Below, piece after piece: positions 9,985 through 52,274 of a stretch of DNA of 64,000 bases. The notes under the pieces are model-generated. The model had not been told where the DNA came from, did not search any database, and saw only the letters and a list, made by a program, of their open reading frames with translations. The stretch is from Phreatobacter sp. GTDB lineage: Bacteria > Pseudomonadota > Alphaproteobacteria > Rhizobiales > Phreatobacteraceae. A program made the position numbers and the translations under genes. Each line of letters begins with the position of its first letter. The stretch's first letter is position 1. The stretch lies in NCBI RefSeq assembly GCF_027532945.1, contig NZ_JAPZTZ010000009.1, positions 1 to 64,000 of the forward strand, written 5' to 3'.

Positions 9985-11313
9985 ATGGCATCGGCAGCGG
10001 AACAACTGGCAGCCAACCTGAATTTCGGGGCTTTCGGCAAGGCCGAGGACCTCAAGAAGCGGCTGTGGTTCACCCTCGGCGCGCTGCTGGTCTATCGCCT
10101 CGGCACCTATATCCCGCTGCCGGGAATCGATCCCGAGGCCCTGCGCCAGGTCTTCAACGCCAACCAGGGCGTTCTGGCCATGTTCAACGTCTTCGCCGGC
10201 GGCGCGGTCTCGCGCATGGCGATCTTCGCGCTGAACATCATGCCCTACATCTCCGCCTCCATCATCATCCAGCTGCTGACCGCCGTCGTGCCGGAGCTGG
10301 AGAAGCTGAAGAAGGAAGGCGAGCAGGGCCGCAAGCAGATCAACCAGTACACCCGGTACCTCACCGTGGTGCTGGCGCTGTTCCAGTCCTGGGGCATCGC
10401 GGTTGGCCTCCAGTCCTCGGGCTCGGTCGTCGCCAACCCCGGCCTGTTCTTCATCATGTCGACGGTCATCACGCTGACCGGCGGCACCATGTTCATGATG
10501 TGGCTCGGTGAGCAGATCACCCAGCGCGGCATCGGCAACGGCATCTCGCTGATCATCTTCGCCGGCATCGTCGCCGAGCTGCCGAGCGTGCTGGCGCAGG
10601 CCTTCGAGCTCGGCCGCCAGGGCGTCATCTCGACGCCGCTGCTGCTCGGCCTGCTCGTGCTCATCGGCGTGACGATCGTCATCATCGTCTTCTGCGAGCG
10701 TGCCCAGCGCCGGCTGCTGATCCAGTATCCAAAGCGCCAGCAGGGCAACAAGGTGTTCGAGGGCAACTCCTCGCACCTGCCGCTGAAGATCAACACGGCC
10801 GGCGTCATCCCGCCGATCTTCGCCTCGTCGCTGTTGCTGCTGCCGACCACGGCCCTGTCGTTCCAGACCAATCCGTCGGAATGGCTGCGCCTGACCGCCC
10901 AGCTCCTCGGGCATGGGCAGCCGCTGTTCATGGCGCTCTATGCGCTGCTGATCATCTTCTTCTGCTTCTTCTACACGGCGATCGTGTTCAATCCGACCGA
11001 AACCGCCGACAATCTGCGCAAATATGGCGGCTTCATCCCCGGTATCCGCCCGGGCGAGAAGACGGCGCAGTACATCGACTACGTCCTCACCCGCATCACC
11101 GTCCTCGGCGCGGCCTACATCACCATCGTCTGCCTATTGCCCGAAATGCTGATTTCGCAGCTCGGCCAAAGCTTCTATCTGCTGGGAGGCACCTCGCTGC
11201 TGATCGTCGTCACCGTGACGCTCGACACGGTGGCGCAGGTTCAGGGGTACCTGTTGGCCCATCAGTATGAAGGGCTGATCAAGAAGTCGCAGCTCAGGGG
11301 GAAACGTCGATGA
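9985..11313 (+). CDS. secY: Protein translocase subunit SecY
   Basis: SecY forms the channel of the SecYEG inner-membrane translocon. The 442-residue protein has ten predicted membrane spans. Typical stretches include [27 protein letters not shown], the loop [31 protein letters not shown], and the cytosolic [16 protein letters not shown] segment. The ATG follows ATCGGAG. It overlaps adk by ATGA. Confidence 0.98.
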
Positions 11314-41932: not shown

Positions 41933-44047
41933 GTGGCAGGTAATGACATGCCGTTGCGGGATCGGGCGCCTCTGGTCGACCTCGACCTGAAGGGCCTTGT
42001 CGAGGCGCTCTGGGCCCGCCGGGTCTGGATCGTCGCGCCGGCGCTCGTCGCGCTCGCCGGTTCCTTCATTGCCGTCACCCTCACCACCCCGACCTATCGC
42101 TCCGAGACCCGCCTCCTCGTCGAGAGCGGCGAGTCGCCCTACACGCGCCCCGAAAGCGACCGTTCGTCGGGTGACCGCACCGCGGTCGACCAGGAGGCCG
42201 TCCTCAGTCAGGTCCAGCTGGTCCTGTCCCGCGATGTCGCCAAAGCCGTCGCGGAAAAGCTCGAACTCTCCGGCAAGCCCGAATTCGATCCGGCCCTGCG
42301 CGGCTTCAATCCCGTCAAGCAGGTCTTCATCGCCCTCGGGCTGATGGAGAATCCGCTTCGCATGACGGCCGAGGAGCGGGTGCTGCGCTCCTATTTCGAG
42401 AAGCTTTCGGCCTTCCAGGTCGACAAGAGCCGCATCGTCGCCGTGCAGTTCGAATCGCAGGATCCGCTGCTCGCCGCGCGCGCTGCCGACACGATTGCCG
42501 CGGCGGTGATGGAGGCGCAGCAGGCGAACAAGCGCAGCCAGACCCGCAATGCCAGCCAGTGGCTCTCTGGCGAGGTCGATGGCCTGCGCCGCAAGGTCGA
42601 GGAGGCCGAGGGTCGCGTCGAGACCTTCCGCGCCCGCGCAAATCTCTTTGTTGGCTCCAACAACACCAGCCTCACCGCCCAGCAGCTCGCCGAGGTGAAC
42701 AGCCAGATCGCCTCCGCCCGCGCTCAGCAGTCCGACGCCCAGACCCGTTCGCGCCTGCTGCGCGATTTCCTGCGCTCGGGGCGCCCGATCGAATCGGGCG
42801 ACGTCATCAATTCCGAGATCATCCGCCGCCTGACCGAGCAGCGCGCCGCAGTCCTCGCCCAACTCGCCGAACAGTCCTCGACGCTCGGGCCCCGCCATCC
42901 CCGCATCGCCGAGCTGCAGGCCCAGCGGTCGAGCCTCGAGACGCAGATGCGCTCGGAGGCCGAGAAGCTGGTGCGCGTTCTGGAGAACGACGCCCGCTTT
43001 GCCGGTGCCCGCGTCGAGGCGCTGCAGCAGACCCTCGACCAGGTGAAGCGCCAGGCGAGTCAGGCGAGCGAGCAGGAGGTGCAACTCCGCGTGCTGGAGC
43101 GCGAGGCAAAGTCTCTGCGCGACCAGCTCGAGACCCTGCTCGCCCGCTACCGCGACGCCTCCGCCCGCGACACGCTCGCCGCCCTGCCGGCCGATGCCCG
43201 GATCATCTCGCGCGCCCTTGTCTCTAATGTCCCGGCCTTCCCGAAGAAGGTGCCGACCATCCTCATCGTCACGCTGGGCACGCTCATCCTCGCGATTGCC
43301 GTGGCCGCGACCCTTGCACTGCTGGCAGGCGAGGGGCGTCCTGCGACCCCCGCATCAGCGGAGGATGAAGCGCATCCGGCAGACCAGCATCTCGACGGGG
43401 CGATTGCCGCGCCGCCGCTGGCCGCGACCGGCGACGACCATGGCCTCGGCGTGCCGGTGGCCCAGCCCGACAGCATTGGCGAACTCGCCCGCCTGCTCGA
43501 CGCCGAGCCGCATCCCGGCGCGGCGCGCCGCACCCTGGTCACCGGGGCGATGGACGCGCTCGCCGCCTCAGCCGTGGCGCTGGCCCTCGCCCGCGAGCTC
43601 GCCGGCGCCGGCCGTCGCACTGTCCTCGTCGACTGCGATCCGGCCGAGGCGCCGCTTTCCGGCCTTGCCGGACCTGCGGCCCCCGGCCTGTCCGACCTTG
43701 CCGCCGGCCAGGCCGGCATCGGCGCCATCATTCATGAGGATCCCATGTCCTCGGCCCATCTCGTGCCCTGCGGCACGCTCGGCGCGGTGGAGCCCGACAT
43801 GGCGGAGTTCGTCATCGACGCGCTCGCCCGGTCCTATGACGCGGTGGTGATCGCCGCCGGTCGCCTGCCGGCGAGCCCCGCCGATTTCGACGCGCTCTGC
43901 CGCCTCGGCGACGACGCGGTGGTGGTGGCCGAGGGCGATGCCCGCAATCCCGCGGTCGAAGCCGCCTATGCGCGGCTCGTCGGCGCCGGCCTGAAGCCGG
44001 TCGTGGTGATGCTGGCGGCGGAAGAGGACGAGGCGGTCGCGGCCTGA
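41933..44047 (+). CDS. Wzz-type chain-length protein with degenerate kinase-like C-terminus
   Basis: A 704-residue inner-membrane protein. The N-terminal Wzz domain has a span near residues 30-50, followed by long coiled coils, the GNVR-type tail and a second span near 450-475. The C-terminal part (about 530-704) resembles a BY-kinase: LVDCDPAEAPLSGL is Walker A'-like, but the P-loop lysine is missing (LVTGAMDALAASAVAL). No Tyr-rich tail is seen. GTG start with GGGAG upstream; ATG five codons later is possible. Confidence 0.85.
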   Translation: MAGNDMPLRDRAPLVDLDLKGLVEALWARRVWIVAPALVALAGSFIAVTLTTPTYRSETRLLVESGESPYTRPESDRSSGDRTAVDQEAVLSQVQLVLSRDVAKAVAEKLELSGKPEFDPALRGFNPVKQVFIALGLMENPLRMTAEERVLRSYFEKLSAFQVDKSRIVAVQFESQDPLLAARAADTIAAAVMEAQQANKRSQTRNASQWLSGEVDGLRRKVEEAEGRVETFRARANLFVGSNNTSLTAQQLAEVNSQIASARAQQSDAQTRSRLLRDFLRSGRPIESGDVINSEIIRRLTEQRAAVLAQLAEQSSTLGPRHPRIAELQAQRSSLETQMRSEAEKLVRVLENDARFAGARVEALQQTLDQVKRQASQASEQEVQLRVLEREAKSLRDQLETLLARYRDASARDTLAALPADARIISRALVSNVPAFPKKVPTILIVTLGTLILAIAVAATLALLAGEGRPATPASAEDEAHPADQHLDGAIAAPPLAATGDDHGLGVPVAQPDSIGELARLLDAEPHPGAARRTLVTGAMDALAASAVALALARELAGAGRRTVLVDCDPAEAPLSGLAGPAAPGLSDLAAGQAGIGAIIHEDPMSSAHLVPCGTLGAVEPDMAEFVIDALARSYDAVVIAAGRLPASPADFDALCRLGDDAVVVAEGDARNPAVEAAYARLVGAGLKPVVVMLAAEEDEAVAA

Positions 44048-46507: not shown

Positions 46508-47776
46508 ATGTCAGACGCCAACGGAACACGCCCCTTTTCCGCCTTCGAGTGGATGCTGTCGCTGCGCTATCTCCGGGCGCGGCGGAAGGAGGGATTCATC
46601 TCGGTCATCGCCGGCTTCTCCTTCGTCGGCATCATGCTCGGCGTTGCGACGCTGATCATCGTCATGGCGGTGATGAACGGCTTCCGGAAGGAGCTGCTCG
46701 GCAAGATCCTCGGCGTCCAGGGCCACATGGTCCTCCAGCCCATCGACACGCCGCTGACGGACTATGCGGCCGTTGCGACGCGCCTCATGCGGATCCCGGG
46801 CGTCAGGCTCGCCGCCCCGGTGATCGAGGGCCAGGCGCTGGCCTCTTCCGCCTTCAATGCCGGTGGCGCCATCGTCCGCGGCATGCGCGCCGAGGACCTG
46901 AGGCGCCTGCCGCTGATCTCCACCAACATCAAGCAGGGCGGGCTGCAGGATTTCGACACGACCGAGGGCGTCATGGTGGGCCAGCGGCTCGCCAACCAGC
47001 TGTCGCTGCGCCTCGGCGACAGCCTGACGCTGGTCTCGCCCAAGGGCTCCTCGACGCCCATGGGCATGACGCCGCGCATCAAGGCCTATCCGATCGTCGC
47101 CATCTTCGAGGTGGGCATGACCGAGTATGACTCGGCCTTCGTCTTCATGCCCTTCACCGAGGCCCAGGCCTATTTCAACCGCGACGGCGACGCCTCCTCC
47201 ATCGAGGTCTATACCGACAATGCCGACCGCATCGAGGAGTACCGTCGCCGCGTCTCCGAAAGCGTCGAGCGGCCGGTCTTCATCGTCGACTGGCGCCAGC
47301 GCAACGCCACCTTCTTCTCGGCCCTGCAGGTCGAGCGGAACGTCATGTTCATGATCCTGACGCTCATCGTCTTCGTCGCGGCGCTGAACATCATTTCAGG
47401 CCTCATCATGCTGGTGAAGGACAAGGGCCGCGACATCGCCATCCTGCGCACCATGGGCGCGACGCGCGGCGCGGTGATGCGCATCTTCCTCATCACCGGC
47501 GCCTCGATCGGCGTGGTCGGCACGCTCGCCGGCTTCGCGCTGGGCGTCCTCGTCTGCCTCAACATCCAGTCGATCCAGGAATTCGTCTCCTGGATCACCG
47601 GCACCACGCTGTGGGACCCGACGGTGCGCTTCCTCACCCAGATCCCCGCCGACATGTCCACCGGCGAGACGCTCTCGGTTCTGGTGATGGCGCTCACCCT
47701 GTCGCTGCTCGCGACGCTCTACCCGTCCTGGCGGGCCGCCAAGCTCGATCCGGTCGAGGCGCTGCGCTATGAGTGA
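46508..47776 (+). CDS. lolC: Lipoprotein-releasing ABC transporter permease LolC/LolE
   Basis: A 422-residue FtsX-like permease with one N-terminal span, a large periplasmic domain (about residues 50-265), and three C-terminal spans. Typical segments are [30 protein letters not shown] and the coupling helix [21 protein letters not shown]. Only one permease gene is present, so it may form a homodimer with LolD, as in many alphaproteobacteria. It overlaps lolD by 8 nt. Confidence 0.92.
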
Positions 47777-48497
47777 TGTCGTGAACGCCGACCGCCCGGC
47801 CGCCAGCGCCCCGAAAGAGGAGGCGCCGGTCCTCTGGCTCGACAAGGTCGAGCGCCGCTACACCGAGGCCGGCGCGCCGCTCGAAATCCTTAAGGGCGTC
47901 GATTTCGCCATCTGGCCCGGCGAGACCGTGGCCCTCATCGCGCCCTCCGGCACCGGCAAGTCGACGCTGCTCCACGTCGCCGGCCTGCTTGAGGCGCCCG
48001 ATGCCGGCGAGGTCTATATTGCCGGCAAGGCCACCTCGAAGCTTGCCGACAAGGACCGCACCCGCATTCGCCGCAACGAGATCGGCTTCGTCTACCAGTT
48101 CCACCACCTGCTGCCGGAATTCTCGGCGCTGGAGAACGTCGTCCTGCCGCAGATGATCCGCGGCCTCAGTTACAAGGAGGCCAAGGCGCGGGCCTCCGAG
48201 CTTCTGACCTATCTCGGCCTCGGCGAACGCCAGACCCACCGGCCCGCCGAGCTGTCGGGCGGCGAGCAGCAGCGCGTCGCCATCGCCCGCGCCGTCGCCA
48301 ACGCCCCGAGCATCCTCCTCGCCGACGAGCCGACCGGCAATCTCGACCCCAAGACCGCCGATCACGTCTTCTCGGCGCTCGGCCAGCTGGTGCGCGCCTC
48401 GCGGCTCGCCGCCGTTGTCGCGACCCACAACATGGACCTTGCCGCCCGCATGGACCGGCGGGTGACCATCCGCGACGGGCTCATCGTCGAGCTGTGA
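47769..48497 (+). CDS. lolD: Lipoprotein-releasing ABC transporter ATPase
   Basis: A 242-residue ABC ATPase. Walker A is APSGTGKST (58-66; most have Gly first), signature [14 protein letters not shown], Walker [13 protein letters not shown]. The LolD-typical [18 protein letters not shown] is present. It powers extraction of mature lipoproteins for outer-membrane transport. Its ATG lies inside the last codons of lolC. Two LexA boxes follow its stop. Confidence 0.95.
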
Positions 48498-48525
48498 CAA
48501 TCTTTACGGTTTGGTAACCGGATGT

Positions 48526-48540
48526 GTTCGCGCTTCGTTC
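48526..48540 (+). promoter_or_regulatory. LexA (SOS) box 1, GTTC-N7-GTTC
   Basis: GTTCGCGCTTCGTTC is an exact match to the alphaproteobacterial LexA operator GTTC-N7-GTTC. It lies 29 nt after lolD and 65 nt ahead of the small peptide gene. Confidence 0.8.
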
Positions 48541-48556
48541 TCTTCACTGGACATGA

Positions 48557-48571
48557 GAACAAAAAAGGAAC
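48557..48571 (-). promoter_or_regulatory. LexA (SOS) box 2, GAAC-N7-GAAC
   Basis: GAACAAAAAAGGAAC is an exact match to the same operator on the opposite strand. Its centre is 31 bp from that of box 1, about three helical turns, so two LexA dimers would sit on one face. It is 33 nt ahead of the peptide ATG. Confidence 0.8.
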
Positions 48572-48604
48572 ATGCTGTTCTCGTCGCTGAAAACGGAGGA
48601 CGAC

Positions 48605-48700
48605 ATGATCCGCAGTTTCATCGAAGACGCCGCTGCCCTTGTGGCCCTCGGCCTTTTCACCGGCATGCTCACCGTCTGGGCCCAGGCCTTGAATGGCTGA
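48605..48700 (+). CDS. Putative SOS-induced 31-residue membrane peptide
   Basis: The product starts MIRSFIEDAAALVALGLF and ends TGMLTVWAQALNG: a short N-terminal helix and one membrane span (about residues 8-27). GGAGGA ends 4 nt before the ATG, a strong ribosome binding site. Two LexA boxes upstream predict SOS control. Similar short single-span, LexA-controlled peptides include the Caulobacter division inhibitor SidA; homology is not claimed. It is too short for most gene finders. Confidence 0.75.
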   Translation: MIRSFIEDAAALVALGLFTGMLTVWAQALNG

Positions 48701-48770
48701 CCTCAACGGCTGAGAGGAGACCACACAGCCTGTGCATAGCGGGAGGCCGGCTGTCGCCGCGCTTGTCGTG

Positions 48771-48786
48771 AGCCGCCTTCGGGCGG
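48771..48786 (+). other. Stem-loop with TTCG tetraloop before dnaE
   Basis: GCCGCC / GGCGGC closes a TTCG loop in the 139-nt spacer between the peptide gene and dnaE. No T-run follows, so it need not stop transcription from the SOS promoter. Confidence 0.35.
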
Positions 48787-48839
48787 CAAGGTCCGGGGAG
48801 ACGAGTCGCGCGGCACGGGCCGCGCCGCCGGGAGGTCGG

Positions 48840-51800
48840 ATGTCCGCGCAAGCCTTCGTGCATCTGAGGGTCCATTCCTCCTTCTCGCTGCTCGAGGGGG
48901 CTCTCTCGGTCGGCAAGCTCGCCAAGCTCGCCGGGCACGACCGGATGCCGGCGGTGGCCATCACCGACACCAACAATCTCTTCGCCGCGCTCGAATTCTC
49001 CGAGAAGCTGAAGGGCGAGGGCATCCAGCCCATCGTCGGCCTCACCCTCGGCCTCGACTGCGGCGACCGGGCGGTCGATCCGCGCCGCTCCAATCTCCAG
49101 GCGGTCAAGCCGCGCATCGCCGTCCTCGCCGCCTCCGAGGAGGGCTATCGCAACCTCATGGCCCTCACCACCAGGGCCTTCATGGACAGTCCCGACCCGG
49201 CCGACGCGGGCGTCACCTTCTCCGTGCTGGAGGCCCATGCCGGCGGGCTCGTCGCGCTGACCGGCGGGCCCGGCGGGCCGGTCGACCAGGCCTTCCGGGA
49301 GGGGCAGGGCGATCTTGCCCGCGCCAGGCTCGAACGGTTGCATGCCGCCTTCGGCGATCGCCTCTATGTCGAGCTGCAGCGCCACGGGCTCGACGAGGAG
49401 AAGGCGGTGGAGCCGGACCTGGTCGAGGAGGCCTATCGCCGTGGCCTGCCGCTGGTCGCCACCAACCAGTGCTACTTCGCCTCGCTCGGTGATTATGAGA
49501 GCCACGACGCGCTCATCGCCATTGCCGAAGGGCGCATCCTTTCCGATCCGGAGCGGCGGCGGCTGACGCCCGAGCACCGGTTCAAGACCCAGGCCGAGAT
49601 GGTGGCGCTCTTTGCCGACCTTCCGGAGGCGGTGGCCTCGACGGTCGAGATCGCCCGGCGCTGCCACTACCGGCCGAAGACCCGCAAGCCCATCCTGCCG
49701 ACCTTCACGGAGGAAGCCGGCGGTGTCGCGCTCGACGAGGCGGCGGCGCTCGCCCGCCAGGCGCGCGAGGGGCTGGACAAGCGCCTTGCGGCCCATGGGC
49801 CGGCGCCGGGCCTCACCGAAAAGGACTATCGCGACCGCCTCGACTTCGAGCTCTCGATCATCGAGCGCATGAAGTTTCCCGGCTATTTCCTCATCGTCTC
49901 CGACTTCATCAAATGGGCCAAGGCCCATGAGATCCCAGTCGGCCCCGGCCGCGGCTCGGGCGCCGGCTCGCTCGTGGCCTATGCGCTCACCATCACCGAT
50001 CTCGATCCCTTGCGCTTTGCCCTGCTCTTCGAGCGCTTCCTCAACCCCGAGCGCGTGTCGATGCCCGACTTCGACATCGACTTCTGCCAGGACCGCCGCG
50101 ACGAGGTGATCCGCTATGTGCAGGAGCGCTACGGCCGCGCCCAGGTGGCGCAGATCATCACCTTCGGCACGCTGCAGGCGCGCGGCGTGCTGCGCGATGT
50201 CGGGCGCGTCCTCGAACTGTCCTATGGCCAGGTCGACAAGCTCTGCAAGCTGGTGCCGCAGAACCCCGCCGCTCCCGTGACGCTCGACAAGGCGATCGAG
50301 GGTGAGCCGAAGCTGCAGGCGGCGCGCGACGAGGACCCGGTCATCGGCCGCCTCTTCGACGTTTCCACCAAGCTCGAAGGCCTCAACCGCCACGCCTCCA
50401 CCCATGCCGCCGGCCTCGTCATCGGCGACCGGCCGCTGGTCGAACTCGTGCCGCTCTACCGAGACCCCAAGACCGACATGCCGGTCACCCAGTTCAACAT
50501 GAAATGGGTGGAGCAGGCGGGCCTGGTGAAGTTCGACTTCCTCGGCCTCAAGACGCTGACCGTGCTGCAGAAGGCCGTCGACCTCATCCGCCGCCGCGGC
50601 ATCGACATCGACCTCGCGGCCATTCCGATCGATGACGCGAAAACCTACGAGATGCTGGCCAAGGGCGAAACGGTCGGCGTGTTCCAGGTGGAAAGCGCCG
50701 GCATGCGCAAGGCCCTCGTCGAGATGAGGGCGAGCCGCTTCGAGGACATCATCGCCCTCGTCGCCCTCTATCGCCCGGGCCCGATGGCCAACATTCCCGT
50801 CTATTGCGCCCGCAAGCACGGGCTGGAACAGCCCGAATATCCCCATCCCCTGCTGGAGCAGGTGCTCTCCGAGACCCACGGCATCATCGTCTACCAGGAG
50901 CAGGTGATGCAGGCAGCGCAGATCCTGTCGGGCTATTCGCTGGGCGAGGCCGACCTCTTGCGCCGCGCCATGGGCAAGAAGATCAAGGCGGAGATGGACA
51001 AGCAGCGCGAGCGCTTCGTCTCCGGCTGCGTCGAGCGGTCGATCCCCAAGGCCAAGGCCGACGAGATCTTCGACCTGCTCGCCAAATTCGCCGACTACGG
51101 CTTCAACAAGAGCCACGCGGCGGCCTATGCGCTCGTCTCCTACCAGACGGCCTATCTCAAGGCGAACTATCCCGTGGAGTTCATGGCCGCCTCCATGACC
51201 CTCGACCTCTCCAACACCGACAAGCTCTCGGAATTCCGCCGCGAGGCGCTGCGTCTCGGCATCGCCGTCGATGCGCCGAGCATCAACCGCTCGGGTGTGC
51301 ATTTCGACGTCGCGGACGGGCGCATTCTCTATGCGCTCGCGGCGGTGAAGGGGGTTGGCGCCCAGGCGGTCGAGGCCATCGTCCAGGCGCGCGGCGACAA
51401 GCCCTTCCGCGACCTCGGCGACTTCGCCCAGCGCATCAATCCGCGCATGCTCAACCGCAAGACGCTGGAGAACCTCGCCTCCGCCGGCGCCTTCGACGAC
51501 CTCGAGCCGAACCGCGCCGCCGCCTTCGCCGCCATCGACCAGGTGCTGGCCGAGGCGCAGCGCCAGGCCGAGGGCAGGGCGCTCGGCCAGGACGAGCTTT
51601 TCGGCGGCTCTGGCGCGCCGCTCATCCGCGTTCCGAAGGTCGAGCCCTGGCTGCCGGCCGAGAAGCTCGACGAGGAATACAAGGCCATAGGCTTCTTCCT
51701 CTCCGGCCATCCGCTCGATGACTACCAGGCGGCGCTGAAGCGGCTGCGCATCGAGCCCTATGCCCAGTTCGCCCGCTCGGTGCGCCAGGGGGCGAGTGCC

Positions 51801-52274
51801 GGGCGCCTCGCCGGGGTCGTCACCGCCCGGCAGGAGCGCCGCACCAAGACCGGCAACAAGATGGGCATCGTCACCTTCTCCGACCCGTCAGGCCATTATG
51901 AGGGCGTGCTCTTCTCGGAAGGCCTTGCCCTCTACCGCGACCTGCTGGAGCCCGGCCGCGCCGTGCTGATGGCGGTCGGCGCAGAGGTGCAGGGCGAGGA
52001 CGTGCGCATCCGCATCCAGTCGGTCGAGCCGCTCGATGAGGCGGCGGTGCGCGTCCAGAAGGGCTTCCGCGTCTTCATCGAGGATCTCGGCGCCGTCGAC
52101 AGCGTGGCGAAGCGCCTGCCCGGCAAGGGCGACGGCGAAGTCAGCCTCGTCATCCGCCTCGCGGATGCGGCGAGCGAGGTCGAGGTGAAATTGCCCGGCC
52201 GCTTCGCCGTCTCGCCGCAGATCGCCGGCGCCATCAAGGCGGTGCCCGGCGTGCAGGCGGTGATGGAGCTCTAG
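48840..52274 (+). CDS. dnaE: DNA polymerase III subunit alpha (replicative)
   Basis: A 1144-residue C-family polymerase, the chromosomal replicase. The N-terminal PHP domain begins FVHLRVHSSFSLLEGALS; the palm carries the catalytic MPDFDIDFCQDRRDEV and GRGSGAGSLVAY; the thumb and fingers have ETHGIIVYQEQVMQAA and FNKSHAAAYALVSYQTAYLK. A C-terminal OB fold follows. Length and N-terminus fit DnaE1, not the mutagenic DnaE2, which is shorter. GGGAGG precedes the ATG. Confidence 0.97.
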   Translation: MSAQAFVHLRVHSSFSLLEGALSVGKLAKLAGHDRMPAVAITDTNNLFAALEFSEKLKGEGIQPIVGLTLGLDCGDRAVDPRRSNLQAVKPRIAVLAASEEGYRNLMALTTRAFMDSPDPADAGVTFSVLEAHAGGLVALTGGPGGPVDQAFREGQGDLARARLERLHAAFGDRLYVELQRHGLDEEKAVEPDLVEEAYRRGLPLVATNQCYFASLGDYESHDALIAIAEGRILSDPERRRLTPEHRFKTQAEMVALFADLPEAVASTVEIARRCHYRPKTRKPILPTFTEEAGGVALDEAAALARQAREGLDKRLAAHGPAPGLTEKDYRDRLDFELSIIERMKFPGYFLIVSDFIKWAKAHEIPVGPGRGSGAGSLVAYALTITDLDPLRFALLFERFLNPERVSMPDFDIDFCQDRRDEVIRYVQERYGRAQVAQIITFGTLQARGVLRDVGRVLELSYGQVDKLCKLVPQNPAAPVTLDKAIEGEPKLQAARDEDPVIGRLFDVSTKLEGLNRHASTHAAGLVIGDRPLVELVPLYRDPKTDMPVTQFNMKWVEQAGLVKFDFLGLKTLTVLQKAVDLIRRRGIDIDLAAIPIDDAKTYEMLAKGETVGVFQVESAGMRKALVEMRASRFEDIIALVALYRPGPMANIPVYCARKHGLEQPEYPHPLLEQVLSETHGIIVYQEQVMQAAQILSGYSLGEADLLRRAMGKKIKAEMDKQRERFVSGCVERSIPKAKADEIFDLLAKFADYGFNKSHAAAYALVSYQTAYLKANYPVEFMAASMTLDLSNTDKLSEFRREALRLGIAVDAPSINRSGVHFDVADGRILYALAAVKGVGAQAVEAIVQARGDKPFRDLGDFAQRINPRMLNRKTLENLASAGAFDDLEPNRAAAFAAIDQVLAEAQRQAEGRALGQDELFGGSGAPLIRVPKVEPWLPAEKLDEEYKAIGFFLSGHPLDDYQAALKRLRIEPYAQFARSVRQGASAGRLAGVVTARQERRTKTGNKMGIVTFSDPSGHYEGVLFSEGLALYRDLLEPGRAVLMAVGAEVQGEDVRIRIQSVEPLDEAAVRVQKGFRVFIEDLGAVDSVAKRLPGKGDGEVSLVIRLADAASEVEVKLPGRFAVSPQIAGAIKAVPGVQAVMEL

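Follow-up and report, generated by a model that had tools for sequence, protein, structure and literature searches.

The 64,000-nucleotide stretch of DNA analysed here (the window) carries, between lolD and dnaE, a small gene that is probably an SOS checkpoint gene of the SidA type, encoding a membrane peptide that would be induced when LexA leaves its operators and would arrest division with FtsW as its likely target. The observations behind this reading are the operators, the gene itself, its conservation, selection on its coding sequence and a locus in common with Caulobacteraceae. On a reading of positions 48000 to 49200, the elements named in the original prediction were found as described: two exact LexA boxes (GTTC-N7-GTTC and GAAC-N7-GAAC) 31 bp apart from start to start, a strong ribosome binding site, and a 31-residue membrane peptide between neighbours that could be named with NCBIfam and Pfam (Table 1). 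LolD scored 260 bits against its best match (E 1.3e-77), under the curated NCBIfam cut-off of 307.75, and DnaE scored 1468.9 bits (E 0; cut-off 1002).

Table 1. Features of the lolD-dnaE region, with positions counted from the first letter of the window
Feature	Position	Strand	Remark
lolC/E, neighbour of the lolD-peptide-dnaE stretch			named by NCBIfam and Pfam
lolD, upstream neighbour	47769..48497	+	best NCBIfam match TIGR02211 (LolD)
LexA box 1, GTTC-N7-GTTC	48526..48540	.	GTTCGCGCTTCGTTC; exact match
Candidate -35 element TGGACA	48548..48553	+	9 nt 5' of box 2; speculative
LexA box 2, GAAC-N7-GAAC	48557..48571	.	GAACAAAAAAGGAAC; exact match
Ribosome binding site GGAGG	48595..48599	+	read directly; 5 nt upstream of the start codon at 48605
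Gene for SidA-like 31-aa single-span membrane peptide	48605..48700	+	MIRSFIEDAAALVALGLFTGMLTVWAQALNG
DnaA-box-like site	48731..48739	.	TGTGCATAG; before dnaE, outside the peptide gene
dnaE, replicative DNA polymerase III alpha, downstream neighbour	48840..52274	+	NF004226

Exact boxes occurred three times in the window, where 1.35 were expected, and 73 times in the whole genome, compared with 31 occurrences of the reversed pattern; many single boxes are therefore due to chance. An exact pair inside 46 bp is an improbable product of chance, with a probability that we estimate from the genome density at about 1 in 1000. The third box of the window, at 10171, was rejected, as it lies inside a large frame (9985-11313) that resembles secY. 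Judged by position, GTTC-N7-GTTC is the operator of the host's LexA: lexA has two boxes (C15:43908 and 43934, with the lexA match starting at 43990), a single box, at C22:78080, precedes recA (C22:76988-77953, minus strand), and recN and uvrA adjoin boxes in the same genome. When a single rule (a start codon within 110 nt, a ribosome-site core, a length of 22 to 45 aa and a hydrophobic stretch) was applied to all 73 boxes, only the two at the peptide locus preceded a small membrane frame. The box at G000:C13 12648 (L319) is followed directly by the gene for a putative DNA repair protein of the radical-SAM type (TIGR03916). Directly behind the box at G000:C30 61287 (L326) is a 275-aa frame that had no NCBIfam match at 1e-12 and ends about 1.5 kb before a second DnaE-type PHP match; this stretch may be an imuA-imuB-dnaE2 operon.

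The start codon of the peptide gene was taken as 48605. An in-frame ATG at 48572, which would give a 42-aa version, was rejected because it abuts box 2 and has ribosome-site-like bases only within that box (enough for the loose rule applied to the 73 boxes), and because a transcript from the TTGACA-like promoter considered below would begin 3' of it. A Pfam hit of the 42-aa version to Tubulin_3 was also rejected (E 0.08; 13.1 bits against a cut-off of 30). In an alignment of eight same-genus species, 59 of the 96 columns of the peptide coding stretch were invariant, compared with 23/139 between the peptide and dnaE. Invariant positions numbered 12/15 in box 2, 8/15 in box 1, 2/16 in the spacer between them, and 14/33 in 48572-48604, the last chiefly within an invariant run that contains the GGAGG.

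According to tblastn, the peptide was found in all 12 same-genus genomes, the host's own included, each time 5' of dnaE; lolD was upstream within the retrieved DNA in 10. Among these 12 sequences, pN/pS was 0.199 in frame and 2.035 and 6.126 in the other forward frames, and the variable columns were distributed 11/3/26 over the three codon positions. With 11 of the 12 sequences, the values were 0.187 in frame, 2.02 and 4.70 in the other forward frames, and 1.73, 0.40 and 5.55 in the reverse frames. The same measure gave 0.321 in frame (0.954 and 3.966 in the others) for 28 Rhizobiaceae sequences and 0.416 (1.126 and 1.399) for 31 from Caulobacteraceae. Because the frame is present in 12/12 same-genus genomes with an in-frame pN/pS of about 0.20, 48605-48700 is, judged from its sequence, a real gene. 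AlphaFold2, run with an 11-row alignment, predicted one helix over residues 2-30 with a mean pLDDT of 95.2. Searches of Pfam and NCBIfam gave no credible family for the 31-aa peptide, and NCBIfam gave no match for the peptides of eight relatives.

The distribution of the gene was examined with a common rule: an exact box no more than 700 nt 5' of dnaE, a ribosome-site core and a membrane ORF of 22 to 45 aa, with the reversed box pattern as the control. The scan covered the 5' side of dnaE only. It comprised 288 loci, with a few genomes counted in two sets. Besides the 12 same-genus loci, the order set contained one genome per family, with dnaE located in 48 of 49 (G017 had no dnaE match). In the class set, dnaE was located in 108 of 114 genomes; 106 of these, besides G000 and G052, less 18 weak matches left 88 loci. 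For the order of G112, which includes Caulobacteraceae, dnaE was located in 41/41 genomes, and 30 loci were used and 11 left out. The Caulobacteraceae set consisted of 80 titled loci, nearly all from that family (three titles were broader, and L228 and L234 are one assembly). The last set comprised 30 genomes of one family (f23), taken as Rhizobiaceae because its genus g309 matches Sinorhizobium meliloti pSymB.

A box was found within 700 nt of dnaE in 172/288 loci, compared with 7/288 for the control, and the full pattern in 144/288, compared with 1/288. In the same genus, the box and the full pattern were each present in 10/12 loci (controls 0). Across the order, 26/48 families had the box and 23 the full pattern (controls 0), with 25/48 failing the full rule; in the class outside the order, the figures were 17/88 (control 4) and 11 (control 0). 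The order of G112 gave 26/30 (control 1) and 22 (control 0), Caulobacteraceae 64/80 and 50 (controls 0), and Rhizobiaceae 29/30 (control 2) and 28 (control 1). By this rule, the gene was rare outside the two best orders, and many of the genomes outside them are small. The conservation in relatives on which the original prediction had been made to depend was seen, since boxes and peptide persist within the genus and across much of the order. Seven order-level tblastn loci (L027, L028, L029 and L034-L037) were not 5' of dnaE and were dropped from the counts.

Within the genus, the exact box pair was present in 7/12 loci, the host's own included (L009-L015), and a single exact box in 4/12 (L017-L020). 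The two misses by the common rule were L015, in which both boxes lie just past 700 nt, and L016, which has no exact box; both have an opposite-strand gene of the Imm50 family, convergent with the peptide gene, between the peptide and dnaE. In L297, L302, L312 and other Rhizobiaceae loci, three GAAC half-sites spaced 7 nt apart stand in a row ahead of the peptide, about 290-350 nt before dnaE, and so form two overlapping boxes.

The stretch before dnaE also contains DnaA-box-like sites of the form TGTGNAYAR (or its complement). In the 300 nt preceding dnaE, such a site was found in 49/288 loci, compared with 2/288 in the reversed sequences, and in 6/12 same-genus loci. Going by these motifs, dnaE may have a DnaA-responsive promoter of its own.

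The peptide had originally been likened to SidA, a 29-aa inner-membrane protein of Caulobacter with LexA-dependent induction that is reported to bind FtsW (PMC4211646). Filamentation of a Caulobacter lexA deletion is reported to be lost when sidA is deleted as well (PMC12700426). The likeness to SidA was strengthened, in that Caulobacteraceae also have a peptide of about 29 aa behind a LexA box in the corresponding position before dnaE. These peptides are mostly 29-31 aa long, for example MARIARETLALASVVGFVWMMCSVAYLAA (Caulobacter sp.) and MALRIARESLALASVAGFVWMMCSMAFLVA (C. segnis), and the dnaE stretch of one genome of the set (G184) is 100% identical to a Caulobacter sp. record. Under a rule looser than the common one, a box with a 26-31 aa peptide was found in 63/80 loci. 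Of the 17 that failed it, 16 were inspected (L215 was left out), and 14 carry the peptide, 13 of them with one-mismatch boxes and L218 with exact boxes; the remaining two comprise one that shows the tail of the peptide and one without a peptide. For C. crescentus itself, the position was worked out from locus tags. The reported tags are CCNA_02004 for sidA (PMC10769358), CC1926 for dnaE and CC1983 for recN (PMC1839093), ccna_02062 again for recN (PMC12700426), and CC2590, or ccna_02673, for uvrA (PMC1839093, PMC12700426). The two recN tags differ by an offset of 79, which therefore places dnaE at or slightly below CCNA_02005. This arithmetic, which stands in for the C. crescentus map itself, supports the inference that sidA adjoins dnaE there.

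We then compared the peptides with one another in an alignment of 126 rows, made of the distinct peptides of each set with the window peptide entered twice. A common signature was seen: R or K (82%), followed by D or E (97%), A or S (85%), L or F (89%), S or A (83%), F18 (83%) and A26 (60%). At position 7, where R or K stands in 82% of the rows, the window peptide carries E. A Caulobacteraceae HMM, judged against 4,100 shuffles, scored 23/23 distinct Rhizobiaceae peptides above 99% of the shuffles and 20/23 above 99.9%. At the 99% level it recovered 2/4 distinct peptides of the same genus (none at 99.9%), 6/23 of the order, 2/11 of the class and 9/21 of the order of G112, the last including Caulobacteraceae. 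In the other direction, an HMM of the order placed 36/43 Caulobacteraceae peptides above 99% of the shuffles and 33/43 above 99.9%. The window peptide itself scored 3.4 bits with the Caulobacteraceae HMM, below the shuffle 99% level of 5.1 and not significant; it was 29-36% identical to five peptides of a Sinorhizobium-like genus and 17-24% identical to four Caulobacteraceae peptides, the latter figure being 20-24% in a second alignment that leaves out row L021. Because this direct score is not significant, the case for homology is carried by the Rhizobiaceae intermediates and synteny instead of by one pairwise score, and the window gene and sidA are best called orthologous by position.

In S. 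meliloti, a small ORF called sORF25 has been reported from Ribo-seq in the 5'-UTR of dnaE1; its authors propose an upstream-ORF role for at least some 5'-UTR sORFs, and they draw special attention to sORF25 (PMC10117765). The words SOS, LexA and SidA do not occur in the main text of that paper. The best member of the genus matching the S. meliloti pSymB piece was 96% identical to it, and 10/10 genomes examined from this genus had one or more boxes and a 28-aa peptide before dnaE, e.g., MADFVRDLAAFASMSLFIVSISVIALGL. sORF25 is probably the same gene as that of the window, matched by position instead of by its published letters.

A consensus sigma-70 promoter scan found none at the peptide locus. 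A TTGACA-like hexamer (at most one mismatch) stands 9 nt 5' of the GAAC-type box in 47 of the 143 loci with such a box, and 71/143 had no such hexamer in the 16 nt examined. Where the hexamer is present, the operator would fall inside the promoter spacer. LexA sitting on both boxes would keep the promoter off. Upon DNA damage, active RecA would lead to LexA cleavage, and the 31-aa peptide would be made and inserted into the inner membrane as a single helix. By analogy with SidA, it would hold the FtsW/FtsI/FtsN complex for septum synthesis inactive until repair is done.

Three other explanations were weighed against a SidA-type inhibitor. The first, which we consider unlikely, is that the frame is a cis-acting leader, i.e., a LexA-controlled upstream ORF whose translation tunes dnaE and raises or lowers the level of polymerase III during damage. 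The suggestion made for 5'-UTR sORFs of S. meliloti, with sORF25 flagged, is of this kind (PMC10117765), and it fits a peptide found on the same strand 5' of dnaE in every match, on the one side scanned; in the window, a terminator scan found nothing between the two genes. However, it is weakened by the Imm50-family gene that intervenes in L015 and L016. The distance from peptide to dnaE also varies widely among loci, and purifying selection acts on the amino acid sequence, which has a shared membrane signature. The second, which is less likely still, is a toxic membrane peptide under SOS induction, comparable to TisB or DinQ, that would lower the membrane potential and slow growth without a specific division target. 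Its size, single helix and LexA boxes would fit, and DinQ is reported to be an SOS-regulated toxic single-span peptide (PMC3567139), but no Rfam match was found in 48300-49000 at the gathering threshold (novel antisense RNAs would escape such a search), and a position and signature conserved over many families are unexpected for a mobile toxin pair. Finally, short hydrophobic frames and single boxes are both common by chance, but the idea of a small ORF that has nothing to do with the operators, these serving dnaE alone, is hardly credible given the presence of the frame throughout the genus, its in-frame pN/pS and codon-position pattern, and 144/288 loci against one in the control.

With the SidA-type reading preferred, we lean, with somewhat less assurance, toward the view that such peptides are an old alphaproteobacterial checkpoint and not a peculiarity of Caulobacter, staying beside dnaE with a LexA box while the sequence drifts until it is barely recognisable. 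To our knowledge, little has been described of SOS division inhibitors in alphaproteobacteria other than Caulobacter. If the reading is true, sORF25 gains a function, and an overlooked SOS division inhibitor is predicted in rhizobia and their kin. The constant arrangement of a LexA box, some 30 codons and then dnaE offers a route to inhibitors in further genomes and opens the checkpoint to tests in S. meliloti; the diverged helices form a natural panel of possible FtsW binders. SidA as a kind was already known; on the place beside dnaE and the spread over Rhizobiaceae and other families, searches of open-access literature gave no paper that we recognised.

Several known systems resemble the one described here. 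TisB of Escherichia coli is an SOS-controlled small membrane peptide paired with an antisense RNA. E. coli DinQ is likewise SOS controlled, small and membrane bound, but it is reported to be paired with an antisense RNA (PMC3567139), whereas no known RNA family in Rfam was matched at the window locus. DidA of Caulobacter is also a small membrane inhibitor of division after DNA damage, acting on the FtsW/I/N complex; unlike the window peptide, it has 71 aa, is SOS independent and activated by DriD, and binds FtsN, as reported (PMC4211646). The Gram-positive proteins YneA, SosA and ChiZ are described as damage-induced membrane inhibitors of late division, and YneA and ChiZ differ in carrying a LysM domain (PMC13396833). 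sORF25 shares with the window peptide a frame 5' of dnaE and, in genomes of the matching genus, a box and a short peptide, of 28 aa instead of 31, the match to sORF25 itself being one of place and not of letters. SidA of C. crescentus (CCNA_02004) has 29 aa where the window peptide has 31, and before the conserved D/E the window peptide has E in place of the R or K of the family signature. The two have in common LexA control (predicted from the boxes for the window peptide), a length of about 30 aa, one membrane helix (predicted for the window peptide) and a place beside dnaE (inferred for C. crescentus); the window peptide follows, in the main, the family pattern R/K-D/E...A...L/F...F.
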